Part shown: piece after piece, positions 6,245 to 44,415 of the stretch | Layout of the letters: each line of letters starts with the position of its first letter | Position numbering within the stretch: position 1 is the first letter of the stretch | IMG/VR virus record: IMGVR_UViG_3300008120_005569 | Location: 1 to 59,542 of that record | Direction: 5' to 3' (one strand) | DNA: 59,542 bases | From: a virus | Notes under the pieces: model-generated | The model's input: only the letters and a program-made list of their open reading frames with translations | The model's database searches: none | What the model was told of the DNA's origin: nothing | Translations under genes and position numbers: made by a program

Positions 6245-7216
6245 ATGGTTGCAAAAGTATTCAAATCAATTTTAAGGCCATTAATGGCACCTATCCCACC
6301 GACAGACTATGAAAAGGCTGCTGATGCGATTGCTACCGCGTATGATTTATCAAACGTTGGTATGAGTATGACCATATTTGGTTCTATATTAATGCAAGGT
6401 AATAAAGAAACCCTGAAGAGCTTTCTACTTCAGGGTTTAACTATGAATAGTGGTCTAACAAATTATCTACCCGTAGTTGAACCTGGATGGACGTTGATGG
6501 CAAACGGATTCTGTTTATATTGGGCAACTGCAACATTTACACCCCTACCACCTATGCCACCTACAATTTCGCCATTGACAGGAACACAAGTTTTATTTCC
6601 TGGAAGTCCTTCAATATTGGACATAGGACTCAAAGTTGCCTTTACGGCGGGATTTGGAAAACCCGAAGATGGTAAGCTTGGGGGGTTAGAGAGTGCTTTA
6701 GATATTCTGTCATTAGTTTTAATTGCACATCAATTAACAATAGCGGGAACATATAACGGATTAATACCAGCCGCACCGTCACCAATACCATTTCTTGCTC
6801 CTTGGGCAGCTATAATAGGTATACCCGATGCCGATATTAAAGATAGCGAAACGGCAACAAGTGGTACAAGTGGCACAAGTGGGACAACAGGAACGAGTGG
6901 AACAACAGGAACGAGTGGTACGAGTGGAACGTCTGCTATTGATAACAATGCACAAAAAATAAATGATATTCTTGCAAAGATAAACAACTTAAACAAATTA
7001 AACGATTCGGATTTACAAAATAGAGTCGGTGATTTAAATACAATATCATCGGATTTGGATAAATTATTATCCGATCCTAATATAATAAAATCAAAAGAAT
7101 ATCAAAGATTAGTAAGTGCTTTGAGCCAATTAGTAAATTTGAAAAATAGAATAAATAAAATTGTTAGTGTCAGTGAAGAACGATTCCCGTATAGCGGCGA
7201 TTGTTTGGATTGTTGA
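6245..7216 (+). CDS. Hydrophobic structural-type protein with GTSGTSG linker
   Basis: A 323-residue protein of unknown family. Residues 1-195 are rich in apolar residues and proline, with several hydrophobic stretches (for example ALDILSLVLIAHQL) but no clear signal peptide. Residues 202-231 are a low-complexity Gly-Thr-Ser linker. The rest is a coiled coil (INDILAKINNLNKLNDSDLQ). A flexible linker between a globular or membrane-interacting head and a coiled coil is typical of phage tail or appendage proteins, so I infer a virion role. Only 2 nt separate its ATG from the preceding stop. Confidence 0.5.
   Translation: MVAKVFKSILRPLMAPIPPTDYEKAADAIATAYDLSNVGMSMTIFGSILMQGNKETLKSFLLQGLTMNSGLTNYLPVVEPGWTLMANGFCLYWATATFTPLPPMPPTISPLTGTQVLFPGSPSILDIGLKVAFTAGFGKPEDGKLGGLESALDILSLVLIAHQLTIAGTYNGLIPAAPSPIPFLAPWAAIIGIPDADIKDSETATSGTSGTSGTTGTSGTTGTSGTSGTSAIDNNAQKINDILAKINNLNKLNDSDLQNRVGDLNTISSDLDKLLSDPNIIKSKEYQRLVSALSQLVNLKNRINKIVSVSEERFPYSGDCLDC
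6857..6930 (+). repeat. 9-bp-type tandem repeat encoding a Gly-Thr-Ser linker
   Basis: Tandem degenerate units of ACAAGTGGT / ACAACAGGA encode the (GTS/GTT)n linker of the surrounding gene. It is in frame throughout, so length changes by slippage would keep the reading frame. Confidence 0.8.
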
Positions 7217-25088: not shown

Positions 25089-25577
25089 ATGGCTGAATTA
25101 CTTAATTCTAATGAGATATTTTTTACCCCATTTGAGCCAAAACTCCAAAACCGATTTATTATGTACATTGAGGGCGTTCCTTCTTGGTTAGTTAAGGGTG
25201 CGGGAAGACCAAACATTAACTTTAATCCAATCAAGTTAGATCACATCAACGTATATCGTAAAGTTAAAGGTAAAGGGGAATGGCAGGATCTAACCATTAA
25301 ACTATACGATCCTGTAGTGCCTTCGGGTGCTCAAGCGGTAATGGAATGGGTACGTCTTTCACACGAATCTGTGACGGGACGTGATGGTTATTCCGATTTC
25401 TACAAAAAGGATATTACATTCTTTACACTTGGTCCTGTAGGTGATAAAGTTGAAGAATGGACATTGAAGGGTGCATTTATTATTGCAACCACTTTTGGTG
25501 AAATGGATTGGGCAAATGATGCTTTCGTTGAGATTTCTCTCACATTAGCATACGATTATGCGATACTCCAATACTAA
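25089..25577 (+). CDS. 19: Tail tube protein (gp19-like)
   Basis: A 162-residue protein of the usual tube size. PFEPKLQNRFIMYIEGVPSW, the central WQDLTIKLYDPVVPSGAQAV segment and the C-terminal DDAFVEISLTLAYDYAI-type ending (here NDAFVEISLTLAYDYAILQY) match T4-type tube proteins. Hexamers stack inside the sheath to form the DNA channel. GGAGA precedes ATG 25089. It is bracketed by terminators, consistent with high-level independent expression. Confidence 0.95.
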   Translation: MAELLNSNEIFFTPFEPKLQNRFIMYIEGVPSWLVKGAGRPNINFNPIKLDHINVYRKVKGKGEWQDLTIKLYDPVVPSGAQAVMEWVRLSHESVTGRDGYSDFYKKDITFFTLGPVGDKVEEWTLKGAFIIATTFGEMDWANDAFVEISLTLAYDYAILQY

Positions 25578-25682: not shown

Positions 25683-26654
25683 ATGGAATCTACAATAAGA
25701 ACAATACTCGTTACCGGGGGTTGTGGTTTTATAGGAAGTAATTTTATACATAAATTGCTTAAAAGAGAAAACAACAATATCCAAATAATCAATTTAGACG
25801 CATTAACATACGCTGCAAAAGAAGAAAATCTACAAGAATTTATTGGTGATAAATTTTATAAATTTTATCACGGTAGAATTGAGGATGAAGAATTTGTGGA
25901 AAAGATATGTAAAGCACATGATGTCGAAGGAATAATCAACTTTGCAGCCGAATCACATGTAGACCGATCAATAGAAGATTTTAAACCGTTCTTGATAACA
26001 AACGTTACAGGAACACTATCCTTACTGAATGTTGCTAAAAAACTTAAACTAAAAAAGTTTGTTCAGGTGTCTACCGATGAAGTATATGGTTCATTAGAAC
26101 TAAACTCAAACGATAAGTTTACAGAAAATTCACAAATCTTACCAAATTCACCATACTCAGCTGCAAAGGCAGCTGCCGATGGGTTTGTTAGGTCTTTTTA
26201 TCACACATACGGTGTACCAACAGTTATTACACGTTGTTCAAACAACTACGGTCCACGTCAATTTCCAGAGAAATTAATACCACTTATGATATTAAATGCA
26301 CTTGACGATGCAAAATTGCCAGTATATGGTGATGGTTTGAATGTTAGGGATTGGATTCATGTTGACGATCACTGTCATGCTGTTTGGTTAGCATACGAGC
26401 GTGGTGTAAATGGTGAAGTTTATAATATTGGATCAAATAATGAGATTGATAATATAACAATAGTTAAAAAATTACTAATGATATTGGACAAATCCGATAA
26501 CTTAATAGAATATGTCGATGATAGATTAGGGCATGACCGAAGATATGCGATAGATTCAAGTAAAGCTGAGAGTGAATTGGGTTGGAGACCGAAAATATCC
26601 TTTGAAAACGGTCTTAGATCAACAGTTGAATGGTATTTAGCGAACAAAAATTAG
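25683..26654 (+). CDS. rfbB: dTDP-glucose 4,6-dehydratase
   Basis: A 323-residue short-chain dehydrogenase. NAD-binding TGGCGFIGSN at 11-20; NFAAESHVDRSI at about 86-97; catalytic Thr-Asp-Glu in STDEVYGSL (131-133) and YSAAK at 158-162; then RCSNNYGPRQFPEKLIPLMI and the C-terminal RRYAIDSSKAESELGWRP. All residues of the dTDP-D-glucose to dTDP-4-keto-6-deoxyglucose reaction are present, so it is probably active. It stands alone inside the tail module, behind its own terminator/promoter element. Use of the product for virion or host-surface glycans is inferred; no RfbA, C or D partner is seen here. Confidence 0.92.
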   Translation: MESTIRTILVTGGCGFIGSNFIHKLLKRENNNIQIINLDALTYAAKEENLQEFIGDKFYKFYHGRIEDEEFVEKICKAHDVEGIINFAAESHVDRSIEDFKPFLITNVTGTLSLLNVAKKLKLKKFVQVSTDEVYGSLELNSNDKFTENSQILPNSPYSAAKAAADGFVRSFYHTYGVPTVITRCSNNYGPRQFPEKLIPLMILNALDDAKLPVYGDGLNVRDWIHVDDHCHAVWLAYERGVNGEVYNIGSNNEIDNITIVKKLLMILDKSDNLIEYVDDRLGHDRRYAIDSSKAESELGWRPKISFENGLRSTVEWYLANKN

Positions 26655-27905: not shown

Positions 27906-30900
27906 ATGGCAAAAAAGAAAAATACAGGTAGACCAGCCCCAAAACCCACCCAACAAAAACAAAGTGGTTCTAATGAAAATGCTGAAAACGGTGACAGACA
28001 AAGTAAATTGTTAGACCTATTAAAACGCAGAAAAGAATTAGAAACTGAAATACTTGCATTAAAAAAACAGATATTTACTGAAGATAAAAATGATGCTGAA
28101 CAGATTGATAAGATTAATCGGTTTGAGGGAAAACGCGTTAAACTTACTAAAGAATATTTTGATTTATTAGAGAAGATAGCAAAGATACGAAAAGATGAAC
28201 GTGAAGAACTTGTTAAGATAGAAAAATTAGAGATAGATAAACAAAAACGTCAAAAGGAAGAAGAAAAAAGAATAAAAAGTATTCAAGAACACCATGAAGA
28301 AATCGGAGACTTACAAGAAAGGGCTCAAGTATTAATGCGTTCATTGAGTGAAGAAGCTCAAAAACAGGCAACGAGTTTAGGATTGACTGCTTCAAATGCA
28401 AAAACATTAGCGGAAGAAATAAAAGATGCAAACATACAAATAACAGATTCAGCTCAAATAAATAAATCATTTGAAAAATCAATGACATCTGTTATGAACA
28501 TCGCAAAAGAGATGGATGCTTTGGAAGGACGTATCGCTGAAAACATGCAAAATTCTGTTGATGGTCAATCTAAATCGTTAGACTTGTATGAAACAGAAAG
28601 AAATCTTAAAATGGCAATGGCTCAATTAGATTTGAATGCTAATAAATTGGGCGTTGAACGCTACATGGCATTAAAGAAAACAACTGATTCATTTGAAGGA
28701 CAGTTTAAACGAATAACAAAAGTTAATAATGCATTAAAAGATCAATCAAAAATTGTTGCTAAAAATAAAAAAGATACTGCTTCTGCCTCAAGTCCATCGG
28801 ATGTTAAATCTATGGAAAGTAATGCTGATAAAATGGGCACATCAATGGGTGATAGATTCAATAGGGCAATGGAACGAGGTGCGAGTAAAGTTGGTGGTTG
28901 GGTAGATACCATTGCAAATAAAATACGTGGTGCAATGGAGTGGGCGGTTGATAAAATAAAGAACGGAATAAAAACAGTATTCTCAGCGGTATGGGATTTT
29001 GTCAGTAAAATATTTTCTATTTTTTACGATTCTGTTATGGATTTGGATAAAAGGGCAGCTGAAACAAGTAGGATTTTTGGTGTTAATAGAAAAATGGCAT
29101 TTGATATGGAAAAGTCATTTGCAAAAATGGCATTATCAGCAAACATCATAGGACAAAATTCAGAACAATATAGGGAAACAACTTCATTTTTAGCAGATAC
29201 ATATGGACTTGGTGTTGAGACACTAATGGGTGGTGATGCACAAATTGGTATAATAAAAAATATGACAACCTTACGGGAACAGTTTCAATTAACAAATGAC
29301 GAAGCTAAAAACTTATTTGAGTTTAGTGTGTTAACCGGGACAAGTATGGACAAGTTAGCACAGGTTACTGACAAGATGAGTGGTGGTATAATGCAAACTC
29401 AACAGGCATTAAAAGCCATGGCAAATGTTCCCAAGATAATGCAATTAAATATAAAGACCGGTTTAGCGGGATTAGCTGCCTTTGCAGCTAAAGCAAAATT
29501 AATGGGGGTTGATTTTGGTAAGATACAACAAATGCAAGATTCTATGTTGGATATTGAATCTTCATTGGGAAAACAATTTGAATCCACCGCGATAACGGGC
29601 ATTCATATAGGTGACATGGACAAAATAAGAGCGGCTGCTCTTTATGGTGAAACCGATAAGATGTTTGATCTTATTATGAAAAATATTGGAACGGTAGATC
29701 AATTTAAGGGTCTTCGTGGTGGTGTTATCGGTCAAAAGGCATTTGCTGGACAGTTTGAAATGTCACGGGAAGAAATGATTGAAATGTTAACACGTGGTGA
29801 AATGCTTAAAAAATTAGGATTGTCCTTTGAAAAGGCTGCAAGACTCCAAGCTAAAAATGAAAAAGAACTACGTGCTATAGCTGAACAAGAAAGGAAAGCT
29901 GGTAATATTAACCGTGCAAACTTCATAGACAATATTGCAAATGAAAAAAAACACGCTGAGATTATGACGAAAATAAATGATAAAATAGAAAAAATGAAAA
30001 TGCAGTTTGCACCAGCGGCTAGTAGAATATTGGATCTTATACATAAGATATTGGATAGATTATTGAATAGCCCAATATTCGATAAAATAATGCAGTTTAT
30101 GAATAATGCTGTTGAGAAATTCGTAAAGAATTTAGATGATTTTCTATCTGGTAAAATATCGTTTAAGGATCTATTTTCAGGGGTAGATTTCGGTTTGGGT
30201 GCGTTATTTAAAGAAATATTCAATGATCCTGCAATAAAAGAGTTTGCAAATTCTTTAGGTTTGGATAAAATAAATATATCGTTAAAAGGATTAAAAGAGA
30301 CATTAGCTGGAATAGAAGAAAAGTTAGGAGTAGTAACTTGGCTATTTGATAATTGGGGAAAAGTTTTGGGCGTAGTTTCTGCCTTGATACTAACCAAATT
30401 TATAGGTATGGGTGGATTATTTAAAATGGCAGTCGGTGCTGGTGTTTTAGCTGGTGCAATGTATTTTCTAACTGATTCTTTTGAAAGATTAGCAAAAGTA
30501 AATGCTGACAATCTTAAAAATGTGGGAATAATAATGGGTGTTATGCTAGGTGGGTTAGTAGGATTAGGTGCGTTAACAGGTCAATTCCCACAAATTATTC
30601 TTGGCATAGTCATTATAGTAGCTTCGTTTAGACTATTGGTTGGTGCTATGCTTGCATTGGCAGAAGTTGCTGATAAATTAAAACCTGTATTTGACTTCTT
30701 ATTAGAACTTGGTAAACTTATATTACAACATTTTAAACAGATGCAAGATTTAGTATACAATTTAGTTAAACTACTTGCAGACTTTCTAATAGAAGCCGTA
30801 AAACAAGTTGGTATTTTAGTAGTAAACGTTTTAACTGCTATCGGTGACAATATGGTAAAAATAATAAGCAAAATACAACAAGCAGCTGAAACATTAATAC

Positions 30901-31796
30901 CAATATTCAGAGATGCTATTGTAGCTCTATTAAATTCGGTTGGGCAAGCTTTCAAAGTTGTTTTTGATTCCATATTTGGTGGTATAACTGCTGTAATAGA
31001 AAAGGCTTTAACAAAAGTAAATGAAGTTATTTATGTAATAAAAGATTCAATAGTAGCTGTAATAGAGTCCGTAAAGTCTGCTATAGACACATTAGCGGGT
31101 GCATTTATTCGTGTGTTGGATAAAGTAATAGAGTTAGTAAAATCAAATCCAGGTAATATAGTAAAGATTGCAGAGGCAATGGCGAGTATAGCTTGGAGTT
31201 TAGGAAAAATGTCATCGGGTATCTTCGGCAGTTCAGGTTCTAAGTTTGCTGAGTTTATGGAAATAGTGCATGTTGCAGACCCAGGAAGAATACAAGCGGT
31301 TGCAAATAGTATAAGAATGTTGACACAAGCTATTCGTGAGTTGAATGGTGCAATGGGTAACTTCAATACTAATAAATTAAACATGGTTGTTAGTAAAACA
31401 CAAAACACAACACCAATACGACCGGGTGGAACAAGTATATGGGGTGATTTTAAGTCAGGAATATCGAATCTTTGGAACAGTGCAACATCATTTTTATCAG
31501 GTGGTTCACAACAGAAGTCTACAAAAATGACATCACCACAAAGAAGTTTTTCTGTTGCTTCAAGTCCTGGACAAGCACAACAGCAACAATATACGCAGAC
31601 GCAAACCACAAACCCATCAACAAAAGAGATGGAAAAGAAGTTGGATACTATAATAAAAATATTGTCAAGTCAATCAACACAAACCGCTCAAATTAGATTC
31701 GGTGAAAAGTTTGTGGAAGAAGTTAAAGTACAATTGGGTAGAATTAGTGATGTTGATGGTAATATTGACTCTGCACGTGGTAGATTCATAAAATAA
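27906..31796 (+). CDS. 29: Tail tape measure protein
   Basis: A 1296-residue protein. Residues 1-300 are strongly charged coiled coil (KELETEILALKKQIFTEDKN). A central section holds amphipathic helices (AMEWAVDKIKNGIKTVFSAV). Hydrophobic membrane-like segments lie around 810-920 (WGKVLGVVSALILTKFIGMG, FPQIILGIVIIVASF). The Gln/Ser/Thr-rich C-terminal region is followed by a short helix (KKLDTIIKILSS). This coiled-coil plus hydrophobic layout, its size, and its position after the tail chaperones identify the tape measure, which sets tail length and may insert in the host membrane during ejection. gp29 equivalence is by role, not by sequence. Confidence 0.85.
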   Translation: MAKKKNTGRPAPKPTQQKQSGSNENAENGDRQSKLLDLLKRRKELETEILALKKQIFTEDKNDAEQIDKINRFEGKRVKLTKEYFDLLEKIAKIRKDEREELVKIEKLEIDKQKRQKEEEKRIKSIQEHHEEIGDLQERAQVLMRSLSEEAQKQATSLGLTASNAKTLAEEIKDANIQITDSAQINKSFEKSMTSVMNIAKEMDALEGRIAENMQNSVDGQSKSLDLYETERNLKMAMAQLDLNANKLGVERYMALKKTTDSFEGQFKRITKVNNALKDQSKIVAKNKKDTASASSPSDVKSMESNADKMGTSMGDRFNRAMERGASKVGGWVDTIANKIRGAMEWAVDKIKNGIKTVFSAVWDFVSKIFSIFYDSVMDLDKRAAETSRIFGVNRKMAFDMEKSFAKMALSANIIGQNSEQYRETTSFLADTYGLGVETLMGGDAQIGIIKNMTTLREQFQLTNDEAKNLFEFSVLTGTSMDKLAQVTDKMSGGIMQTQQALKAMANVPKIMQLNIKTGLAGLAAFAAKAKLMGVDFGKIQQMQDSMLDIESSLGKQFESTAITGIHIGDMDKIRAAALYGETDKMFDLIMKNIGTVDQFKGLRGGVIGQKAFAGQFEMSREEMIEMLTRGEMLKKLGLSFEKAARLQAKNEKELRAIAEQERKAGNINRANFIDNIANEKKHAEIMTKINDKIEKMKMQFAPAASRILDLIHKILDRLLNSPIFDKIMQFMNNAVEKFVKNLDDFLSGKISFKDLFSGVDFGLGALFKEIFNDPAIKEFANSLGLDKINISLKGLKETLAGIEEKLGVVTWLFDNWGKVLGVVSALILTKFIGMGGLFKMAVGAGVLAGAMYFLTDSFERLAKVNADNLKNVGIIMGVMLGGLVGLGALTGQFPQIILGIVIIVASFRLLVGAMLALAEVADKLKPVFDFLLELGKLILQHFKQMQDLVYNLVKLLADFLIEAVKQVGILVVNVLTAIGDNMVKIISKIQQAAETLIPIFRDAIVALLNSVGQAFKVVFDSIFGGITAVIEKALTKVNEVIYVIKDSIVAVIESVKSAIDTLAGAFIRVLDKVIELVKSNPGNIVKIAEAMASIAWSLGKMSSGIFGSSGSKFAEFMEIVHVADPGRIQAVANSIRMLTQAIRELNGAMGNFNTNKLNMVVSKTQNTTPIRPGGTSIWGDFKSGISNLWNSATSFLSGGSQQKSTKMTSPQRSFSVASSPGQAQQQQYTQTQTTNPSTKEMEKKLDTIIKILSSQSTQTAQIRFGEKFVEEVKVQLGRISDVDGNIDSARGRFIK

Positions 31797-31835: not shown

Positions 31836-34800
31836 ATGTCATTGTTAGACTTAAAATCAGATTTATCAAAATACCGTTGGAAAGGTCCAGGTGCCCCCGT
31901 AGATCCAAGCTCGAAAACACCTAGGGCAACGAGTTATGGCGATAACTTTGGTTCGTTTCAACCAATATCCAATACGTTTATAAAATCGGGTAATTTACCA
32001 AAAGTCGTTCAACCAAAGGAAGTTGATTTGATTGGGAAGTTAGATGACACCCGTTTGGATAATATAGTTACTGATATGCGTGAATCACAATTGGTTCAAC
32101 GTTTAGAAAATACAAGATTGGATGATATACAAAAACCACAAAATAGAAATATTCTTATTAATGCTGTTTCATCATTATCACCACAGGCAAAAGACGATGT
32201 TACAAACCAATTCAATAGAATAACAACGGAAGATGTTACATCCGAATTAGCAAAAATAAATCAAGATATATCTCAGACAAACATAACAAAATCAGATGTT
32301 GTGGTTTTGAAATCAACAACCGCTGGTGAAAACAACACAAGGTCTAATGTTGATATAATAAAGAGTGACAATCAACGTGGTAATGTACGTGATCCAAACG
32401 TTGTAATAAATAGGACACCATTATTCATAAATAGAGAAGCACAGTCTGCTGTAATAATAAAAGATTTAAGAACAACAACAGACAATATAACAGATCCTGG
32501 AACACCTGTAAACAAAGTTGTTCAAACGGTAGATAGACAAAATCAATCGCCATCAATAAACACCTACAATGATTTAAATGGTTCTATTGTTAATTTAGAG
32601 ACAAATAATTTAGTAGATGATACACAATTTGATATTGTTGGTACACCATCAAGATACAACACAGATTCCAAATTAGTATTGAAACAACGTGCAACTATTG
32701 ACACAACACGATACGATCAGGTATCCGATATATTGGGTGCGCCAAGTAATCTAAACTTGGATGACGTTAGCGAAACAAACCCAAGTGGAAGACATAACAC
32801 AGATAGAAACACGGAACTGTCAAATAAAAATGGCCAAGAAATAGACTTCTTTCCCAACACAAATGCAGAAGGGTTCACTAACAAAGTCCAATCGGGTGTA
32901 ACCGAATACGATTTGGATTCTTCGGTTTTAGGATTTGACGGTGTAACTGAAGCAAATTACTTTGATATAACAAATAGATTTACAACTGAAGGATTCCACG
33001 CATTTGCACAGACACGTGAAGACACGAAATTTAAAGATGGTGCTTCTGAGTTTGATTGGGATAAAAATGTACCACTATCGGATTACTTTGATACAAATAG
33101 AACCTATACAAGAAGTGGATTTCATTCGTTTGCACAAACAGGTGAGGCCACCAAGTATAAAGTAGAGTCGAGTATTTTCGATTGGGATGGTGTTAGAACA
33201 CAGTCACCATCGGTAAATTATTTTGACCTAACCAATAGATATACAACAGATGGATTTCACAACTTTGCAGTAGAGTATGATACAAAATACATAGTTGGTT
33301 CTTCTAGATTTGATTGGGACGGTTTACGTGGTAGTGCTCCATCTACAAATTATTTCGATGTTGCTAACATAAGTACATTTAGAGGATTTCACAATTTTGC
33401 AATAACTAAAGAACCAACATCATATCAAACAAGACTGTTAGGAAGTTCTTTAGTATTAACAGACAACGCTTCTTTATTGGATTGGGATGGATTAACAGTT
33501 CCAACCGTTAACTTTTTTGATTTAACAAATAGAAGCACATTTCGTGGATTTCATGCTTTTGCAACAACAAGAGAAGCTACTTCGTATCAAACATCACTGA
33601 TTGGTAGTTCTTTAGTTCTCACCAATAACGCCTCATTCTTGGATTGGGATGGGACTGTGAATAATGTACCCACTGTTAATTTCTTTGACCAAAATAATCT
33701 TAGAACATTTCGTGGTTTCCATTCATTTGCAACAACATTAGAACCAACTTCATATCAAAATGTTAGAGTTGGAACCGCGTTTACACTTAGAACAAATGCT
33801 ACGGTATTTGATTGGAATGGTGTACGTGTAAATGCTCCTGCTGTAAACTTCTTTGATCAAAATAATATTAGAACATTTAGAGGTTTTCATACCTTTGCAC
33901 AAACTCTTGAACCAACTTCATATCAAACAAATGCAATTGGAACTACATTAGCATTAAGACCAAACGCAACTGTATTTGATTGGAACGGTATACGTGTAAA
34001 TGCTCCTGCTGTAAATTTCTTTGATTTAACAAATCTACATACATTTAGAGGATTCCATACTTTCTCAACAACATTGGAACCAACTTCGTATATTCAGGGT
34101 GCATCATTTTTAGATTGGGATGGTCTAAGAGCCGCAGCTCCTGCCGTTGATTTCTTTCCATCTTATGCTGTTCCACGTGGATTCCACACATTTGCAAGAG
34201 AATATGATACGTCATATAGAAATATACAATTGGGTTTAACATCTGTATTAGATCCATTTGCTTCGTTTTTAGATTGGGATAGTCCGTTTTTAATAAATAC
34301 ACCACAACAACCAGGTGCTCCTGCTGTTAACTTCTTTGATTTAACTAATAGAAGTACAACTCGTGGTTTTCATCTATTTGCACAAACAGGTGAACCAACG
34401 TCATATAGAATACAAAGATTGGGACAAGGTGGATTTGGTTTAGATCCAAATGCTTCATTTTTAGATTGGACTGGTGGTAGACAAAACGCACCAACTGTAA
34501 ATTATTTTGCTAATTGGCCTGCTGGACCAACAACGAGAGGGTTCCATGCTTTTGCTCAGCAAGCTGAACCTACATCTTTTGCAACTGTTCAATCGGGAAA
34601 TGTAATAGCACTGAGAGCAAATACATCAAGATTTGATTGGAACGGTTCAAGTACATTTGCTCCAGCCGTTGATTTCTTTCCATCGTATGCTGTTCCACGT
34701 GGATTCCATACCTTTGCAAGAACATTTGACACATCGTATAGAACTACACAAGTTGGACTGACATCAGTATTAGATCCATTTGCTTCAGCATTTGATTGGG

Positions 34801-37800
34801 ATAGCCCATTCTTAGTAAATACAGCACAACAACCAGGTGCTCCTGCGGTTAACTTCTTTGATTTAGCAAACAGAAGTACAACTCGTGGATTCCATACATT
34901 TTCGCAAACAGGTGAACCAACATCATACCAAACAAGAAGATTGCAGGGTGGTGGATTTGGATTGACAGATAATGCTTCTTTCTTGGATTGGAATGGTGGA
35001 AGACAGAACGCTCCAACCGTTAACTTCTTCGATCCAAATAATATAAACACATTAGCGGGATTCCATTCGTTTGCAACAACACGTCAAAATACACGGTATA
35101 ATACTGGAACAATAGGTAACAACCTCTTAGCACCAGGTGCAACTACATTTGATTGGAACGGTTTGCGTAATAATGCTCCTGCTGTTAATTTCTTTGATTT
35201 AAACAATGTAAGCACCACACGTGGATTCCACACATTTGCTGACTTGAGTGGTGGAACAACCGCTTATAGATTGGCAGTAGGATTTAATCCAGTTTTGGGT
35301 GGTTCTGTAAACTTTTTAGCACCAGGTGCTACTAATTTTGATTGGGACGGTTTAGATCCATATTCAATTAGAACAACTAATTTCTTTGGATTCACAAACA
35401 CAACAAGATTTGGATTCATGGTGAACATGTCTCAATTCGATGGAACAGCCTATCCAATAATAAATCCAAGATTTAATGCTAATATACTTCGTATTCAAGG
35501 TGTAGGACAACGAGCTCAAAGATTTGGTTTGACAACATTTAGACAATTATTACAACCACTTCAAACAAGTAACTTAGAACAATTTGCACCCGCTACATTT
35601 GGTGGAAAAACTATATCCGGATTTAGGTCAACATTAGACATCCAAACACCGGCGGTAATACTACAAAAATTTAACTTGAATGTAGCAACTAATCGTGTTA
35701 GAATAAACCCAACTGCTCCTGGATTTACAAAGAGATATACTTCAGGTGGGGGTGTTGATATAAGACCATCAACCGTTGACGGAACAATTGAAAGTTGGGC
35801 TAATAGTAACTCATTACCACTACAAGTACCGTTTTCTGGAAATCAGTCAGATACATTAATAGAAAGACTACAAAAGAAATATAGATTAAGAGATGAGGCA
35901 TATAATACCGATATATTTGGATTAAGACAACCATTTGTAGATGATTCATTACATGGACCTGAATCGGTTTCTATGTTCCCGTTTGATGATGGTTTGGTTC
36001 GTGGTGGTATAGTAAACAACACAATAAGTGCTTTATTAGATTCAGTACGAATCGGTAAGTTTCTATTGTCGGGTAGAGGTATACTTTTCAACATAAAACA
36101 ATCAGGCCTTCAGGCTATGAATCCTAATGTTGATAAACCAACTGCTAATAATCCAATTGATAGTTTTTTAAATCTACCAAGCATAATATCAACGAAGGCA
36201 CCAAGTCAATTTTACAATCCACTTTCAATACCTAGAAATGTTTTAGAAGTCGGTCCTTTGGGTAATAGATACGCTCGTCATGGTATAATGATGGATGGTG
36301 TGTTCGGTAGATATGAACGTGTTGCTATAGACAGAGCTTTGAATTCAGATAAGTACAGTTACTTTGATGAATTTTCAGATTCAGCTGATAATAACTATAA
36401 TAGATTAATTGGTTTGGTTAAAGAGTTATTGCCAAATTCATACGATCCAATAAGACAGAACACATTACCAAAACAAAATACTCAGTTAGAAATAAATAGA
36501 ATATCATCGTCACACGGTGGGCCTGGATCTTTATTAGGATTTTTTGGTACAACAATTAATAGAGCAACTCATCCATTTAAGATTGTAAATTCAACCAATT
36601 ATATTCCAGAGCAAGTAAATGTAACTTTAGGATTAGACCGCGAAGTATTTTTCTCAGCGAGATATGACAGTGGAAACCGTCAGACTGATACATATTCTGA
36701 AATGTTATTACGTCAAATTGAAAAATATGACGGTGATATGCATGGTTTAATTTTAGATGCAGCTATGCTTTCTATAACACAAGTAGCTCCATCACCACGG
36801 AATGCAAGCACCACAGCCGATAGTCAACTCTATACACCATCATTTTCTGACAGTAGAAAAAATAAAATAAATTCTGCGGATTCAAAAATACAGTTAATAA
36901 CAAGACAACGTATTGGTGCATCTAAAGTTTTTGATTTTAAAAAACCAACTACAACGGAGAGATTTAAAGCTATAAACGGTGGTTACATACCATACCGAGA
37001 TAAAAATGAAAGTATATTTGACGAAATATTCTTTGTAGGGTCCAAAAATAAAAAAACATATTACGATAGACTATTCGGTGAAACAGATGGTGAATCAACA
37101 AAATACGGAAATGCGTATGGTGTTATGTTAGGTTCAACCGTTGGGATTGTATCATCAGGACTGCTGCCAAAATTTGTAGATGGAAGACAGATAATAGACA
37201 AAACAGAATTTAAAGTACCATTAAACAAATACGATAAACGTAGAATCGAAGAATTAGATGTCTTTGGTTTTAAACAAATACCAATAAAGGAAAGAGGACG
37301 CCGTGTTATAAGTGAGAACATAACACCAAGAAAAGATTTGTTGGAGTTAGCTTCTGAAACCTTTTTCACCTCAAATTTAATAAGAAGTGATGTAAATTTA
37401 ATATCAAGATTCTCATATGGCGATTATTTGTTGGGTAGATTGCCTGACGGAGAAACTCAACAAGTTGTACTAAACCCACAGGATCAAAATGAATTTTCTT
37501 TAGGTATATTAGGTTCATTAACGTTGAATCAAAAATTAGAGGGTATACATAGAAAATTTGAAGGTGATGTTGTAATAGAAGCTGAATACAATAAGATACC
37601 TATAAACGATAAAACAAAAACTCTTATTGAAAAATTAAAACCCTTTGAATTTATACCTCCAACAGTTAACAGTAGATATAAAGCTGTAACAAGTGAAAAT
37701 GCTTACCGAGAAGGTGAAAATCTTTATAGTGAGATGTATTTTGGAAGTGCAAAATCAAAATACGATGTATTGGTTGGTAAAACAGTAGACAAACTAAGTT

Positions 37801-40514
37801 ATGGTGCAAAATTAAAAGACGATTGGGCTACTAAAAATTCAAGAGTATATGGGTTAGTGTTAGCAGCTGCTACTTTAAATTTAAGAAAAACAGCGTCTTC
37901 ACCAAGAAATGCGTCTACAATAATAGTTGGTGGTCCAACTTGGGATTCTTATGTAAATGGTAATTTCGATGGGACAGCTGCAAATGAAGCATATCCACTC
38001 AGTGAAGTAGCAATTAACAGTGAAACTGTACAAACACTAAAAGCATTAAAAACATTTGATTTTAAATACCCAAATCCATATGAAAGGTTCAGTGCTTTAA
38101 GTGCTTTGGGTGAAAATTTTAGAGAGGGTAACAGATCTTTATCAAATGGACCTGATATTGATGAATCTGCTAAAAATGTAAATCCATTATTAAAGTACAA
38201 AACAACACGATATAGTCAATTAGGTGAGACACGGAGTTCAAATGCTTGGTGGAGTGCTTCTCAACCAACTGACTTTAGAGATAAGATAATAGATGGTACT
38301 GAGTATTTTTCAACCGATCCAAGAGTTGTAAATTATAAAAAATATGGAGTGGAATTAAGAGGCGATGGTACTGGATTCGGTGACCCAGGTCTTCCTGGAT
38401 ATAGAAAGAATTTACCGTACATTAGCAATATACATTATACTTCGGGTCTTTCACGTGCAGCTGCGGACTCATTTGCGAGTGGCAGTAAACAAAATAATCA
38501 GCCTGCTAATAGAAAATATGGTGCATATCCAAATACTAAACCCGAAATACTTAAACGAGAACAGGCTGAAAGAGAGAATGGTAATCCAACAGCAACTTTC
38601 TTCAGAGGCGATAGAATAAACATAATAGATTGGAAGCGGTCTGAACAGAATATAAATGTTAATAATGTTTACGAAAAAACTTCACCGTATGGAAATCAAA
38701 TGTTAGGTTCACAAGACCTAATACAGTTTTACTTCTCAGGTGTAGATTTGATTGCTTCTGAAAATAAGCCAACTGAAGCTATAGTATTTCGTGCTTACAT
38801 CGATACTATTTTGGATAACCACAAACCAACGTGGACTCCAATTAAATATATTGGTAGAGCCGATCCTGTTTATTCTTATGACAGTTACGAAAGAGAAATA
38901 TCATTTGGATTCACAGTACATACAGGAACTCGTGACGAATTAAAAGCAACATGGCGTAAATTAAACATGCTTGCTTCATGGACTACACCTGACTATGTAG
39001 ATCCAGGATTTATGAAGGCACCTATATGTAGATTAAACATCGGTAATCTTTATCGTAAATTCCCAGGATTTATAAGTTCACTGACGTATACTTTTGATAA
39101 TACAATGACTACGTGGGAAACTGCAAAATTAGCTGAAGATTTAAATATATCAGATCGTAATATAGGACCATTATCAAAACCAGGTGCTTTGGAATTGCCA
39201 AAAACTATTTTAGTTCAATGCACATTTGTGACATTTAACATATACAGACCACAGTGGGATTGTGTGTTCTATTCATTATTCGATGATACAACGGGTGGAA
39301 CATCCGTTGAAACAGGTTTGGTTCCAAGGAGTGATGACCGTGTTAATTACTTCAGAACACATGATGATTTACCAGTTACACATCCTATGAACGCTTTATT
39401 GTGTGCGGTAATACCACCGCCACCACCTCCACCAGTTCCTAAAAAGAGAACAATAACAGCAGGTGGACCTGGAGGCGAAGCAACAACACCACCACCAACA
39501 ACACCGCCACCAACAACGCCACCACCTACAACCGCTCCTCCTAATTTGCCGGAGAAGATTTGTATTTGCAAAATAGATTTTTGCTTTGATGAGGACCGTG
39601 AAATAACTCCCGAATCAAGACGAGCAGTAATTCAAGTTGCAAATTGGTTAAATGAATGTCCGAATATACGTGTCAATGTAAAGGCGTATTGTTCAAGAGA
39701 GGCTGATAACTTTGCTTATAATAAATTGTTATCTATGGCAAGAGCTGTAACGGTATGTAATTTGCTTATAGAAGAATGTGGAATAGCTTCTAATAGATTG
39801 GTTCCCGTTGGTATGGGATTTGGTGATTACAAAGAGGCATACAAACCAGAATCTAAAAATAGATGGGCAAAACAACAGAATAGACGAGTTATATTTGAGA
39901 TAATAGAAGGAGCTGATTCTTGTAACTATAAACCAAGTTTTGACTGTAACCCAGAACTACCCGAATGCGATAAGTCAGAATACTGTTACAGAAAAGATGG
40001 TACTAAGTTTTGGAGAGTTGGTCCACATTACTTCACAGGTAATAGATTTATAGAGGAGGGTGGAAAGAGTGTCGGTGAAACATACACAGGATGGCCAAAG
40101 AGCACTGGCCCAATACGTCCTCCAGGATTAAGTATCGGGGCGTTCAACTCCAAAACTAAATTAGAATTACCGTTTGCAGCCGATTTAACAAAGAGACTTG
40201 CTTGGCATAAATCATATAGAATACAAAATCCAGACGAGACTCAAGGCGTTGCTCAACAAACATATAACGTTTGGTTCGATCCATTATTAGATGCTAAACA
40301 GCATTTTCAATTGGAAGGTACTTCTGAAAAACCTGTGATAACAATTTCGGGTGGTGATACACCAATAGATATTTGGCGTCGTAGATATAATAGAGATACC
40401 AACATAAAGAATACAAAAGGAAAACAAACACACGTCAACACTGGATTTTCGGGTAAAAAGAAAGGTGAAGATGGATTGGATAATGTGACATACATAATAA
40501 ATCCAAATAAGTAA
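31836..40514 (+). CDS. Giant baseplate/tail protein: GFHxFA repeats, gp48/54-like domain, OmpA-like domain
   Basis: A 2892-residue protein. Residues 1-345 are Asn/Thr/Asp-rich. About 350-1190 hold fifteen copies of a (V/D)-x-F-FD...T-x-RGFHxFA...EPTSY module. About 1640-2050 hold a second duplicated module with SPRNAST. About 2280-2490 resemble T4-type gp48/gp54 baseplate-tube junction proteins (FRAYIDTILDNHKPTWTPIK, YIGRADPVYSYDSYEREISF, FRxGTRDELK-type TGTRDELKATWRKLNMLASW). After a proline/threonine linker, residues about 2573-2700 form an OmpA-like domain (ICKIDFCFDEDREITPESRR, VKAYCSREADNFAYNKLLSM, RLVPVGMGFGD, QQNRRVIFEI). It probably spans the baseplate and contacts peptidoglycan on attachment. 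Such a fusion is unusual; the role is inferred. Confidence 0.75.
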   Translation: MSLLDLKSDLSKYRWKGPGAPVDPSSKTPRATSYGDNFGSFQPISNTFIKSGNLPKVVQPKEVDLIGKLDDTRLDNIVTDMRESQLVQRLENTRLDDIQKPQNRNILINAVSSLSPQAKDDVTNQFNRITTEDVTSELAKINQDISQTNITKSDVVVLKSTTAGENNTRSNVDIIKSDNQRGNVRDPNVVINRTPLFINREAQSAVIIKDLRTTTDNITDPGTPVNKVVQTVDRQNQSPSINTYNDLNGSIVNLETNNLVDDTQFDIVGTPSRYNTDSKLVLKQRATIDTTRYDQVSDILGAPSNLNLDDVSETNPSGRHNTDRNTELSNKNGQEIDFFPNTNAEGFTNKVQSGVTEYDLDSSVLGFDGVTEANYFDITNRFTTEGFHAFAQTREDTKFKDGASEFDWDKNVPLSDYFDTNRTYTRSGFHSFAQTGEATKYKVESSIFDWDGVRTQSPSVNYFDLTNRYTTDGFHNFAVEYDTKYIVGSSRFDWDGLRGSAPSTNYFDVANISTFRGFHNFAITKEPTSYQTRLLGSSLVLTDNASLLDWDGLTVPTVNFFDLTNRSTFRGFHAFATTREATSYQTSLIGSSLVLTNNASFLDWDGTVNNVPTVNFFDQNNLRTFRGFHSFATTLEPTSYQNVRVGTAFTLRTNATVFDWNGVRVNAPAVNFFDQNNIRTFRGFHTFAQTLEPTSYQTNAIGTTLALRPNATVFDWNGIRVNAPAVNFFDLTNLHTFRGFHTFSTTLEPTSYIQGASFLDWDGLRAAAPAVDFFPSYAVPRGFHTFAREYDTSYRNIQLGLTSVLDPFASFLDWDSPFLINTPQQPGAPAVNFFDLTNRSTTRGFHLFAQTGEPTSYRIQRLGQGGFGLDPNASFLDWTGGRQNAPTVNYFANWPAGPTTRGFHAFAQQAEPTSFATVQSGNVIALRANTSRFDWNGSSTFAPAVDFFPSYAVPRGFHTFARTFDTSYRTTQVGLTSVLDPFASAFDWDSPFLVNTAQQPGAPAVNFFDLANRSTTRGFHTFSQTGEPTSYQTRRLQGGGFGLTDNASFLDWNGGRQNAPTVNFFDPNNINTLAGFHSFATTRQNTRYNTGTIGNNLLAPGATTFDWNGLRNNAPAVNFFDLNNVSTTRGFHTFADLSGGTTAYRLAVGFNPVLGGSVNFLAPGATNFDWDGLDPYSIRTTNFFGFTNTTRFGFMVNMSQFDGTAYPIINPRFNANILRIQGVGQRAQRFGLTTFRQLLQPLQTSNLEQFAPATFGGKTISGFRSTLDIQTPAVILQKFNLNVATNRVRINPTAPGFTKRYTSGGGVDIRPSTVDGTIESWANSNSLPLQVPFSGNQSDTLIERLQKKYRLRDEAYNTDIFGLRQPFVDDSLHGPESVSMFPFDDGLVRGGIVNNTISALLDSVRIGKFLLSGRGILFNIKQSGLQAMNPNVDKPTANNPIDSFLNLPSIISTKAPSQFYNPLSIPRNVLEVGPLGNRYARHGIMMDGVFGRYERVAIDRALNSDKYSYFDEFSDSADNNYNRLIGLVKELLPNSYDPIRQNTLPKQNTQLEINRISSSHGGPGSLLGFFGTTINRATHPFKIVNSTNYIPEQVNVTLGLDREVFFSARYDSGNRQTDTYSEMLLRQIEKYDGDMHGLILDAAMLSITQVAPSPRNASTTADSQLYTPSFSDSRKNKINSADSKIQLITRQRIGASKVFDFKKPTTTERFKAINGGYIPYRDKNESIFDEIFFVGSKNKKTYYDRLFGETDGESTKYGNAYGVMLGSTVGIVSSGLLPKFVDGRQIIDKTEFKVPLNKYDKRRIEELDVFGFKQIPIKERGRRVISENITPRKDLLELASETFFTSNLIRSDVNLISRFSYGDYLLGRLPDGETQQVVLNPQDQNEFSLGILGSLTLNQKLEGIHRKFEGDVVIEAEYNKIPINDKTKTLIEKLKPFEFIPPTVNSRYKAVTSENAYREGENLYSEMYFGSAKSKYDVLVGKTVDKLSYGAKLKDDWATKNSRVYGLVLAAATLNLRKTASSPRNASTIIVGGPTWDSYVNGNFDGTAANEAYPLSEVAINSETVQTLKALKTFDFKYPNPYERFSALSALGENFREGNRSLSNGPDIDESAKNVNPLLKYKTTRYSQLGETRSSNAWWSASQPTDFRDKIIDGTEYFSTDPRVVNYKKYGVELRGDGTGFGDPGLPGYRKNLPYISNIHYTSGLSRAAADSFASGSKQNNQPANRKYGAYPNTKPEILKREQAERENGNPTATFFRGDRINIIDWKRSEQNINVNNVYEKTSPYGNQMLGSQDLIQFYFSGVDLIASENKPTEAIVFRAYIDTILDNHKPTWTPIKYIGRADPVYSYDSYEREISFGFTVHTGTRDELKATWRKLNMLASWTTPDYVDPGFMKAPICRLNIGNLYRKFPGFISSLTYTFDNTMTTWETAKLAEDLNISDRNIGPLSKPGALELPKTILVQCTFVTFNIYRPQWDCVFYSLFDDTTGGTSVETGLVPRSDDRVNYFRTHDDLPVTHPMNALLCAVIPPPPPPPVPKKRTITAGGPGGEATTPPPTTPPPTTPPPTTAPPNLPEKICICKIDFCFDEDREITPESRRAVIQVANWLNECPNIRVNVKAYCSREADNFAYNKLLSMARAVTVCNLLIEECGIASNRLVPVGMGFGDYKEAYKPESKNRWAKQQNRRVIFEIIEGADSCNYKPSFDCNPELPECDKSEYCYRKDGTKFWRVGPHYFTGNRFIEEGGKSVGETYTGWPKSTGPIRPPGLSIGAFNSKTKLELPFAADLTKRLAWHKSYRIQNPDETQGVAQQTYNVWFDPLLDAKQHFQLEGTSEKPVITISGGDTPIDIWRRRYNRDTNIKNTKGKQTHVNTGFSGKKKGEDGLDNVTYIINPNK
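32880..35420 (+). repeat. Fifteen-copy GFHxFA protein repeat with internal block duplication
   Basis: Fifteen GFH(A/S/N/T/L)F(A/S) modules of about 45-70 residues, with degenerate flanking copies. The two-module block starting VPRGFHTFAR...TSVLDPFAS and ending GGFGL...RQNAPTVN occurs twice (about 34150-34520 and 34670-35030), showing a recent segmental duplication. Confidence 0.9.
39410..39545 (+). repeat. Proline/threonine linker repeats before the OmpA-like domain
   Basis: A run of six prolines (PPPPPP), then repeated PPPTT units encoded by ACCACCACCAACAAC-type 15-bp repeats. It is a rigid tether between the baseplate domain and the peptidoglycan-binding domain. Confidence 0.85.
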
Positions 40515-40537
40515 TATTTTAATTATAGGTGATATTT

Positions 40538-40870
40538 ATGGTAAAGAGATACCAAGATTCAAGATTATTGGAAAATATAAAGAAAATCGATTCACAGGGA
40601 AAAGAATACCACGTGAGACGTTTATCAACAATAATGTATCCCGAATTTCTAACTGATAATGATACTCAAATAATATCACAAGATGGTGATAGATTAGATC
40701 TTTTAGCAAAGGAATTTTACGGAGACGAAACTCTTTGGTATGTTATTGCAAGAGCAAATAATTTAGGAAAAGGCAGTATGTATGTTCCACCTGGCGAAAT
40801 AATACGAATACCATATGAAGACGCTATGGGTATTTCAGAAATAATGACGGAGTTCAATAGGAGTAGATAA
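40538..40870 (+). CDS. 53: LysM-like baseplate wedge protein (gp53-like)
   Basis: A 110-residue protein. ATG 40538 has AGGTGA (40527-40532) at proper spacing; the GTG at 40529 is not used. The C-terminal half, ISQDGDRLDLLAKEFYGDET, LWYVIARANNLG and MYVPPGEIIRIPYED, is a LysM-like fold as in T4 gp53 and other short baseplate proteins (x-x-GDRLDLLA-x-x-x-YG-x-x-x-LW-x-I-x-x-x-N). The preceding YPEFLTDNDTQII corresponds to the gp53 lead-in. In T4, gp53 cross-links baseplate wedges; the location between two giant baseplate proteins fits. Confidence 0.7.
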   Translation: MVKRYQDSRLLENIKKIDSQGKEYHVRRLSTIMYPEFLTDNDTQIISQDGDRLDLLAKEFYGDETLWYVIARANNLGKGSMYVPPGEIIRIPYEDAMGISEIMTEFNRSR

Positions 40871-40872
40871 GT

Positions 40873-43800
40873 ATGCCATACTATGAATCACCCGTAAATC
40901 GTTACATAAATCCGTTTTATTTAGAAGTATTTCCCGATATTAGAGTAGAAATGGAAAGTAGGGCTGGTGCCTACGCTTCAGAGGTACGCAGTACCAACAC
41001 CAAAAGCATATCATGGCCTTATCAAAAGATGCCTTGGGCACACATAACTGCCTATTATTGGGAAAACAAACAAAGAAAGGAATTTAAAATTGGTTTTGAA
41101 GAAGATAAAATAGGCAATTTAAATTCAAATGAACGTGGTAAATTATCTTTGTATGGGGAACAACGTAATCAACCAAAATATCCATTAGTGACTGGAATAG
41201 ATATTTCAAATCAAGGTTTACGTGGATCTTTGCTAAAGGGTAAATTCTCATTTGTATTTTTTCCCGAATTAACTTTGACGGGATTCGAGTTAGAAACCAT
41301 GCAACGAATATTGTTTACTCCTGGAAATGAAGTGCAAATAGCATTTGGTTGGAGTGAATATGCGGAAATTCCCGAAGTCAATAGTTTAGAATTTAAGGGC
41401 ATAATTTATGGATTTAATTGGTCATTCAATACCAACCTATCAATTTCAGCTGAAGTAGATATTGTTTCAGTAACCACTATTGCATTGGGGTTATCAGGTG
41501 ATCAGACAGTAGTTGAAACCGATCAAACTGATATTGTTAAATTAAATGATCCATTTTCAACGGAAATAAAAGGATTGAATCTAATATCTGTTATAGATAA
41601 AGACTTATCAATACAAACACAAACTCTAAAACAGGGTGAAATATCATATTATCCACTTGATAAAACACCATCAAAGTTGATGGATTACTTTGCTATATGT
41701 TTGCCATCGAGTGAAGTTGAAGAATTAGAACAGATAGTTATTAACATAACAGGTTCCGATGGTGGTGGTGGAACAGAAACAACGCCTACAGATGATGGTG
41801 TGATTGAAGGCGCTCCAACTGAAGGTGGTATAGTTGACGCTATTAAAAACGCATTCGGGTTTGGTGAGGGTGAAGAAAAGAAAAAGGGAAATGGTTATGA
41901 TTTAACAAAAGTAGATCCATTGGATTATGTGAATCAACACTTTTTTGTTCAAAATTCTAAGGAAGTTAACGAAGGAAAATTCACATATCATGTTACAAGT
42001 AGATATGGTCATTTTGCTAAACAGCATTTAAAAGATGATGATCCAAATAAAAAAGACGGAAATTATCCGGGTAAAAGTAATGATAATCAAACCTTTTCGA
42101 TACCAGAAACAGACATCGGCAAATCGAGTATAATAATATTAAAAGTAAAACCAAATTTCAAAGATACAGTTAAAGCTGTGTTAAAAGAAATAGCTATATC
42201 AAACCCAACCGTTGGTCCAGGTGGTAGTGATGATTATGGAAATTGGTCTTACGATAACTCAGGAACATTTAGAGTTTTAGATGTACAAAGAAATATTGCA
42301 GACTTTAAAGATAGTAATTATACAACTGGTGATGTACTGTACAAGGCTGGGTTTCAACCACGTTTAAGGACGGCTGGTGCAGTGTCTACACTTGGGTTAA
42401 GTGCATTTGTTAAAAGACTTAGTGACTATCAAGAAGATGGTGAACAGGAATATTACATAAAAATAGCTTATATGCCAAAACGCTATACCAAAAGCGAAAA
42501 GGCAAGAATAGCATTTTATTTTGAATTTTATAATCAATCTAACAACTTATTTCAAGGTGAATGGGTAACTATCCATTTAGAAGGGAAAACGAAGTCAATA
42601 GAAAGGTCTGATACGGTTGATTTTGGTAAACAAAAAATAAAAACAAATAGCAACCCAAGACCAATACAAATAAAAGTTGGCAAAGATAATGATAAACTTT
42701 TTTCAAGAATAGCACCTAAAGATGGATATTATATCGATGGTAAAAATGCTTCTGCTTTTAGTATTGTAAAATTTGAAAACAATACTATATCTAAAAATAA
42801 AGAAACGGAAGATACATTTTTTATACAGTTTTCTCCAAAAACTGAGGGGGATAAAGAAGCTGTTTTACGTATAAGAGTTGAAAATTTTAACACCAAAGGT
42901 CAATTTCAAACAACAACTTTCATGGAAAAGCGATTAGTTGGTAGAGCGGTTAAAACGGATGCTGAAGTGGATTCATTTGAAGGTGGTATAAAAAAAGAAA
43001 CAGATGCAACAGTTGATCCAAATGCAACAAATAATACACCGATAGAAACAGCAACACCTGATGGAACAACGCCTGATGGAACAACACCAGATGGGACAGC
43101 ACCTAATGGGGCAACACCCGATGGAACAACCGAACCAATTGTTGTTCGTGATAAGATTTTTTGGTATGTTAGATTGGGTTCATTAGTAAACTTTGCAAAT
43201 ATATTAGTATCAAGGTTTGAAGAAGACAATGTGGATAAAGATCTATTTTATAGTCTATTTACAATGCAGGCTTTCAATAATGAAACACAATACAACCCAT
43301 TAGTTAAATCTGCAAATCCTATAGATGTATTTTTCCCAGATAAAAATATGGGTGCATACGGCAGTATAGTACCATTCAATTCAGAAGGAACAAACCTTGT
43401 CGGTGAAAATCAAGATAATAACCAATTTTTACGTCATTTCGGTAGATGGAATTCCGAAAAGAACATTAGAGAAACAAGAGTGGAATCCGATGTTATTAAC
43501 CTTGGAAACATTTTAATCGGTGTTGATGTTATAAAAAGAATATACGGTACTTTTATTGATGATGGTGGAAAAAATATATCATTCAAAAACATAACAAAAT
43601 TTTTCGATGAAATATTAGGTTTGGTGAGTGCTGCTACAGGTGACATATATGAATTGACAGCTATACTTTTTGACGAACCCGAATCACTTGTAAAATCAAA
43701 ATTTGGTTACGGCTTTTCAGAAAAAAGACAAAGGGCTATATTATCAATAGAAGATACCAATTTGGCAAAAAAGGTAACACAATTAAACGGAGTTGATACT

Positions 43801-44415
43801 GTAGAACCGTTTTGGTTTGACGCAACCGTTATACGCCCGTTATTACGTAATGTGACTGTTGTTTCAAGACCATCAAAAGAGATGGCATCCGCTGCTTACA
43901 TAGCAGCAAGAGGTGGTACTGCGTTAATAAGTGGTCAAGGTGACGGTGCTGGAATCGTTAACTTGGACAACCAACTTAATTTGGGTGGGTATACTAACAT
44001 AAAAGAATATAGAGACGAATATAAAAAGACATTAGAAGAAATGCAGACTGCTGAAAGGACATTAGCAAGTTCAGGATGGAACTCAGCGTGGTCAGAAACA
44101 TATAGGGGATCACTCATAAAATACAAAAGATTGGCTTCAGGACTTCCACCCGATGAAGTTACCGATGCACATTGGTTGAATAAAGCTATCTACCCTATAG
44201 AATTTAGTGCAACAATAGATGGTATAAATGGTTTTAAATTCGGTGATGTTCTCAAAACATCACTTATACCCAAACACTACAATGAAGCATGGGATATAAC
44301 GTTTACAGTAACTAAAATAACACATAAAGTAACTCCTAGCACTTGGGAAACAACATTACAAACAGCTGCTAGATTAAGTCAATATGCACCTGGTTATGGA
44401 GATGAATCAAAATGA
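40873..44415 (+). CDS. Baseplate hub-like protein with an inserted ASH/HYDIN-like domain
   Basis: An 1180-residue protein. The N-terminal region (residues 100-215) has hub-like beta strands (VTGIDISNQGLRGSLLKGKF, NEVQIAFGWSEYAEIP, FNWSFNTNLSISAEVDIVSV). Residues about 575-690 form an ASPM/SPD-2/Hydin-like immunoglobulin domain (DTVDFGKQKIKTNSNPRPIQ, AFSIVKF, FFIQFSPKTEGDKEAVLRIR). A (TPDGT)n linker lies at about 727-752. The C-terminus (FSATIDGINGFKFGDVLKTS then LIPKHYNEAWDITFTVTKIT) is the FTIDGI-x-G-x-x-x-GD ending common to phage baseplate hubs. gp27-type hub function is inferred. It overlaps the next gene by ATGA. Confidence 0.65.
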   Translation: MPYYESPVNRYINPFYLEVFPDIRVEMESRAGAYASEVRSTNTKSISWPYQKMPWAHITAYYWENKQRKEFKIGFEEDKIGNLNSNERGKLSLYGEQRNQPKYPLVTGIDISNQGLRGSLLKGKFSFVFFPELTLTGFELETMQRILFTPGNEVQIAFGWSEYAEIPEVNSLEFKGIIYGFNWSFNTNLSISAEVDIVSVTTIALGLSGDQTVVETDQTDIVKLNDPFSTEIKGLNLISVIDKDLSIQTQTLKQGEISYYPLDKTPSKLMDYFAICLPSSEVEELEQIVINITGSDGGGGTETTPTDDGVIEGAPTEGGIVDAIKNAFGFGEGEEKKKGNGYDLTKVDPLDYVNQHFFVQNSKEVNEGKFTYHVTSRYGHFAKQHLKDDDPNKKDGNYPGKSNDNQTFSIPETDIGKSSIIILKVKPNFKDTVKAVLKEIAISNPTVGPGGSDDYGNWSYDNSGTFRVLDVQRNIADFKDSNYTTGDVLYKAGFQPRLRTAGAVSTLGLSAFVKRLSDYQEDGEQEYYIKIAYMPKRYTKSEKARIAFYFEFYNQSNNLFQGEWVTIHLEGKTKSIERSDTVDFGKQKIKTNSNPRPIQIKVGKDNDKLFSRIAPKDGYYIDGKNASAFSIVKFENNTISKNKETEDTFFIQFSPKTEGDKEAVLRIRVENFNTKGQFQTTTFMEKRLVGRAVKTDAEVDSFEGGIKKETDATVDPNATNNTPIETATPDGTTPDGTTPDGTAPNGATPDGTTEPIVVRDKIFWYVRLGSLVNFANILVSRFEEDNVDKDLFYSLFTMQAFNNETQYNPLVKSANPIDVFFPDKNMGAYGSIVPFNSEGTNLVGENQDNNQFLRHFGRWNSEKNIRETRVESDVINLGNILIGVDVIKRIYGTFIDDGGKNISFKNITKFFDEILGLVSAATGDIYELTAILFDEPESLVKSKFGYGFSEKRQRAILSIEDTNLAKKVTQLNGVDTVEPFWFDATVIRPLLRNVTVVSRPSKEMASAAYIAARGGTALISGQGDGAGIVNLDNQLNLGGYTNIKEYRDEYKKTLEEMQTAERTLASSGWNSAWSETYRGSLIKYKRLASGLPPDEVTDAHWLNKAIYPIEFSATIDGINGFKFGDVLKTSLIPKHYNEAWDITFTVTKITHKVTPSTWETTLQTAARLSQYAPGYGDESK
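43051..43130 (+). repeat. 15-bp tandem repeats encoding TPDGT linker
   Basis: ACACCTGATGGAACA-type units are repeated five times in frame with small changes (APNGA in one unit), forming a flexible linker. Confidence 0.85.

Follow-up and report, generated by a model that had tools for sequence, protein, structure and literature searches.

Repeat-unit number in a giant baseplate-region protein scales with tape measure protein length among related phages

The window, by which we mean the whole stretch of DNA analyzed (59,542 nucleotides), is an IMG/VR-type virus record of 59.5 kb, possibly a fragment, with ends that are not classed as complete. The tape measure protein (TMP) gene is followed by the gene for a giant protein and then by a baseplate wedge gene, with the sheath and tube genes lying upstream. 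The presence of sheath, tube, TMP, and wedge genes around the array gene identifies the region as a contractile tail module. The features discussed here, all on the plus strand, are as follows.

22542 to 24998, +: tail sheath gene, context (PHROG 23, E 1e-72)
25089 to 25577, +: tail tube gene, context (PHROG 4542, E 6e-25)
27906 to 31796, +: TMP gene, 1,296 amino acids (PHROG 5493, E 1e-12)
31836 to 40514, +: giant baseplate-region protein gene, 2,892 amino acids, start ATG (ORF list; full-length relatives have the same layout)
31836 to 31877, +: conserved N-terminal motif, here MSLLDLKSDLSKYR (alignment of 21 relatives)
31836 to 32825, +: N-terminal prefix of short repeats, residues 1 to 330 (HMM boundary; periodicity)
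32826 to 35375, +: module array, residues 331 to 1180, 16 to 17 modules including degenerate ones at the start (HMM)
32991 to 35240, +: fifteen GFHxF[AS] motifs (regular expression)
34110 to 34631, +: three-module block, first copy, modules 9 to 11 (DNA repeat finding; module comparison)
34632 to 35147, +: three-module block, second copy, modules 12 to 14 (DNA repeat finding; module comparison)
35376 to 35432, +: conserved array-end anchor, TNFFGFTNTTRFGFMVNMS (conserved in most relatives)
38601 to 39410, +: conserved core domain, FRGDRINIID... (alignment; searches without matches)
39597 to 39857, +: OmpA-like domain, residues 2588 to 2674 (PF00691, 35.7 bits against a cut-off of 27.2)
40529 to 40870, +: baseplate wedge gene, context (PHROG 7145, E 8e-11)

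A nucleotide-sugar epimerase-like gene (25683 to 26654, +; PHROG 540, E 4e-93) lies between the tail tube gene and the TMP region. Elsewhere in the window, a 388-amino-acid ORF (210 to 1376, +) has repeats of about 50 residues (...AIKTDGTLWSWGDNxxGELGLGD...) that look RCC1-type by eye. Short simple repeats occur as GTSGTTGTSGT at 6856 to 6930 (+), within a 323-amino-acid ORF (6245 to 7216), and as TPDGT at 43052 to 43130 (+), in the downstream 1,180-amino-acid gene (40873 to 44415).

The GFHxF[AS] motifs start at positions 32991 to 35223 and all 15 are in one frame of the giant ORF; fifteen [FL]DW[DNT] motifs, from 33051 to 35337, share that frame. Repeat finders also recovered the modules at the DNA level. 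The array described in the sequence-only reading therefore exists, but its start had been placed too late: a 44-state HMM has it begin with degenerate modules at residue 331 (about 32826), earlier than the fifteen-motif count implies. Aromatic residues, together with G, N, S, T, P, and D, are abundant in the array, which in the window passes directly into the array-end anchor. A second class of shorter repeats precedes it, for which the period measured over relatives is 34, or 2 × 17, amino acids; spacings of the P motif in prefix sequences are 15, 16, 18, and 34. The prefixes of the close relatives L016 and L015 have a third repeat type of about 20 amino acids (LxxTKLDDIkkF), with a two-copy difference between them; their TMPs are 54 amino acids apart, mostly through one 45-amino-acid indel.

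Outside the repeats, the N-terminal motif has the form M(S/A)LxDLxSDLSK(F/Y)R in the relatives, and the core domain has a mean column identity of 59% over 21 of them. The OmpA-like domain, which scores above the Pfam gathering threshold, is the sole named domain in the protein. It is part of an extension beyond the core (39410 to 40514, +, in the window) that measures 300 to 445 amino acids in the window and in relatives L003 and L004; in the window and L003, it includes proline-rich linkers. The C-terminal extensions of other relatives are shorter and seemingly unrelated.

Within the array, a block of modules is duplicated. Positions 34102 to 34401 and 34624 to 34923 are 82% identical over 300 nucleotides at a spacing of 522 nucleotides. 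A duplication had been proposed before as a two-module block; modules 9, 10, and 11 pair with 12, 13, and 14, and the period is thus three modules (522 nucleotides). The first two pairs (9/12 and 10/13) share 77 to 80% amino acid identity with a dS of about 0.6, and the third (11/14) has diverged to 48%. The dS value indicates that the duplication is not recent, contrary to the recent copy-number change initially suggested. Indeed, no module-sized length difference was found in any near-identical contig pair compared; the array-end position was equal in every comparison of identical or nearly identical contigs, and a more distant pair (L015/L018) differed by one residue. Copy-number change is real over longer times, but among strains none is seen in this sample.

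The repeat is real and, as was first proposed, belongs to no named family. Ten single modules gave no Pfam match at an E value of 0.1, and a profile of the array found no convincing match among PDB sequences, none being better than an E value of 0.05. Six-module queries matched many unrelated Pfam families, which look like weak scores summed across repeats. A profile of the core found no credible relative in Pfam, PHROGs, or the PDB. The giant protein did not match tape measure families; the upstream gene is the match to PHROG 5493.

Protein scans yielded 63 loci at first, and about 50 distinct loci had a complete chain and a complete TMP. A later search with TMP queries returned mostly already-known contigs and three new complete loci. 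The module count varies from 7 to 22 among the roughly 50 complete relatives. The unit is exactly 44 amino acids in most lineages; modules tolerate inserts of 10 to 28 amino acids, and longer modules of up to 72 occur in the window, L003, L004, and the L053-to-L067 group. The relatives share a layout of N-terminal motif, short-repeat prefix, array, array-end anchor (in most), and core. A true relative is encoded by Microcystis phage Mel-JY01 (WWT39329.1, annotated as a hypothetical protein), with about 20 modules, most of exactly 44 amino acids, and the same gene order as in the window. It differs in having modules without inserts and in lacking the long C-terminal extension, as it ends shortly past the core. 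Flavobacterium phage immuto gp235 (QQO92153.1) has a homologous core, its N-terminal motif is similar, and its gene directly follows the tape measure region, as here. However, gp235 has only 717 amino acids, and no GFHxFA modules were seen in its sequence. The literature searched yielded neither a paper on Mel-JY01 nor any description of a second tail protein matched in length.

The number of units, far more than the length of the chain, scales with TMP length after phylogenetic correction. For each complete locus, modules were counted with one 44-state HMM, and the prefix was taken as the residues before the first module. Over 48 loci, TMP length equals 576 + 19.7 × modules + 0.99 × prefix residues, with an R2 of 0.93. 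Replacing the module count with array residues gave an R2 of only 0.74, and adding array residues to the count model brought little gain (P = 0.09). Independent contrasts on a core-domain tree, which rest on a simple length-change model, gave 18.3 ± 1.3 TMP residues per module and 1.07 ± 0.09 per prefix residue (R2 of 0.85), a fit matched by 0 of 500 permutations. The slope per module was 18.4 (bootstrap, 14.9 to 21.3), and it stayed between 17.3 and 19.4 when branch lengths or the TMP start were changed, when only strict-44 lineages were kept, or when a TMP-domain tree was used. As controls, neither the rest of the giant protein (P = 0.65) nor the downstream gene (P = 0.25) was related to TMP length; sheath length was marginally so (P = 0.04), yet with a range of only about 10 amino acids.

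In leave-one-out testing, Q2 was 0.92 and the error 24 residues, compared with a standard deviation of 84. Definitions of the measures followed an initial look at the data, and the three loci added once the fit was made are a small test: for L219, L268, and L191, the predicted TMP lengths were 1,415, 1,271, and 1,496 and the actual lengths 1,418, 1,264, and 1,556, giving misses of 3, 7, and 60 amino acids. The window is the worst-fitting member, at +88 amino acids, with L003 of its clade at +41 and L004 at +23, and module counts are less certain in insert-rich lineages. The window's protein has an OmpA-like domain and inserts within its modules, and its array runs directly into the anchor.

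The two repeat types are interchangeable in this relation. One module is worth 16 to 17 prefix residues in the regressions (bootstrap, 13 to 20), such that a module of 44 to 72 amino acids brings the same TMP increment, about 18.5 amino acids, as 16 to 17 residues of prefix. This exchange rate, together with the independently measured prefix period of 2 × 17, indicates that a 17-amino-acid repeat and a 44-amino-acid module each count as one step. The trade can be seen in individual pairs. L051 has three more modules than L052 and 47 fewer prefix residues, and their TMPs are 89% identical with no internal indel; in L044/L048, two modules more are likewise traded for 31 prefix residues fewer, with the TMP changing by +5. 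The equal step value of two repeats so different in size is the observation most in need of explanation.

Several other candidate regularities were rejected. Counting the proline motif [ASND]P.[VITL] as a docking element failed (R2 of 0.08). An 18-residue period in the TMPs was set aside; lags of 7, 11, 14, and 18 were seen, but these are usual helix periods. A strong TMP lag of 56 was also set aside, as a few conserved residues, counted anew in each relative, may account for it.

The tape measure protein is generally credited with setting tail length. We infer that TMP length stands for tail length in these phages too, and that the chain would run along the tail, contact the TMP, and help to set or stabilize length. 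The two conserved ends and a unit number that follows the TMP suggest a chain spanning the tail axis, and the array is probably part of such an N-terminal chain, belonging to a baseplate-region protein and lying along the axis with the TMP. The conserved core, on the C-terminal side of the chain, would anchor at the baseplate, with the conserved motif at the N terminus. Between these ends, repeats of about 17 and about 44 amino acids (to 72 with inserts) would each make one step per 18 to 19 or so TMP residues, regardless of repeat length. The chain's likely job would be to coat or accompany the TMP, either while the tail grows or once it is complete, acting as a second ruler or a chaperone-like sleeve. 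A TMP partner counted in units is the best-supported reading, within which the ruler would be a more specific proposal.

Published dimensions bear on what the steps might dock to. Removal of 347 residues from the TP901-1 TMP shortened the tail from 118 to 65 nm (PMC5099701), which gives 1.53 Å per residue and a step here of about 28 Å. In T4, gp29 is 64.4 kDa and the tube has 138 gp19 copies, or 23 rings (PMC3004832); at 1.53 Å per residue (PMC5099701), one tube ring corresponds to about 25 to 27 TMP residues. The observed 18.5 or so TMP residues per step are too few for one repeat per ring. They are near the 18-residue repeats of TP901-1 and below the ring value, and TMP contact is therefore favored over docking on rings. 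This matters for the alternative of an axial chain positioned outside the lumen, either on the sheath or between it and the tube. Its repeats would dock along the rings, and it would scale with tail length as a strut or decoration rather than as a measuring device. Any axial element would scale with the TMP, so the co-scaling data are silent on the side of the tube, and inserts of 10 to 28 amino acids would fit more readily outside the tube, whose lumen is about 4 nm wide (PMC9022992). Nevertheless, one repeat per ring lies outside the bootstrap range of the slope, and we consider this arrangement unlikely.

Further removed is the idea, raised in the sequence-only reading, that the array is a baseplate or fiber element varying reach or binding the host surface. 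The gene does sit among baseplate genes, and the OmpA-like domain added in the window's clade could bind the cell wall. Module number instead tracks TMP length, and nothing points to a host-surface link; near-identical strains lack module-sized length differences, and the repeats fill residues 331 to 1180 behind another repeat type that trades off with them. We regard this role as very improbable, the least favored of those considered. Hardly more probable is a correlation without any physical link behind it, arising from common ancestry or from the way modules and prefix were counted. The relatives do share kinship and only about 50 are distinct, the measures were set after a first look, and the window is an outlier. 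Against this, the relation survives contrasts, permutation, other trees, and other branch lengths; the same-gene and next-gene controls, the leave-one-out test, and the three later-fetched loci also speak for a real relation, and the exchange rate between module and prefix agrees with an independent periodicity.

We know of no repeat chain in T4 gp48 or gp54. Those proteins form the baseplate-tube junction (PMC3004832), a comparable place between hub and tube and near the TMP; the core here differs in having no sequence match to solved structures or PHROGs, and PDB and PHROG profile searches with it did not reveal a gp48/gp54-type tube initiator. Repeats themselves are familiar from phage TMPs, with units of 11 or 18 residues (Belcaid 2011, PMC3271669; TP901-1, PMC5099701), including the 18-residue repeats of TP901-1 (PMC5099701) and a mixed 11-11-18 pattern (PMC3271669). 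There, repeat number relates to tail length; here it relates to TMP length, in steps of about 18.5 TMP residues, near 18. In contrast, the repeats described here belong to another protein, encoded next to an ordinary TMP gene; aromatic residues and G, N, S, T, P, and D abound in them, and each counts as one unit irrespective of length. Tail assembly chaperones, which coat the TMP in other phages, are proteins in their own right that tube subunits displace (PMC9022992), whereas here one very large chain is fused to a conserved core, and no sequence link to the chaperones was found. Chaperones of the gpG/gpGT type are small proteins encoded between the tube and TMP genes, with a frameshifted longer form; the protein here has 2,892 amino acids and is encoded after the TMP gene.

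Taking the unit-counted partner of the TMP as the preferred reading, we tentatively raise the possibility that these phages have a second molecular ruler in the form of a modular chain fused to a baseplate protein, with one repeat per 18 or so TMP residues whatever the repeat size, in which case both proteins would have to agree on tail length. The equation predicts that removing one module would leave the tail shorter, unassembled, or mismatched. The repeat count of a neighboring protein, in steps independent of the residues per repeat, offers a sequence-based handle on what accompanies the TMP.
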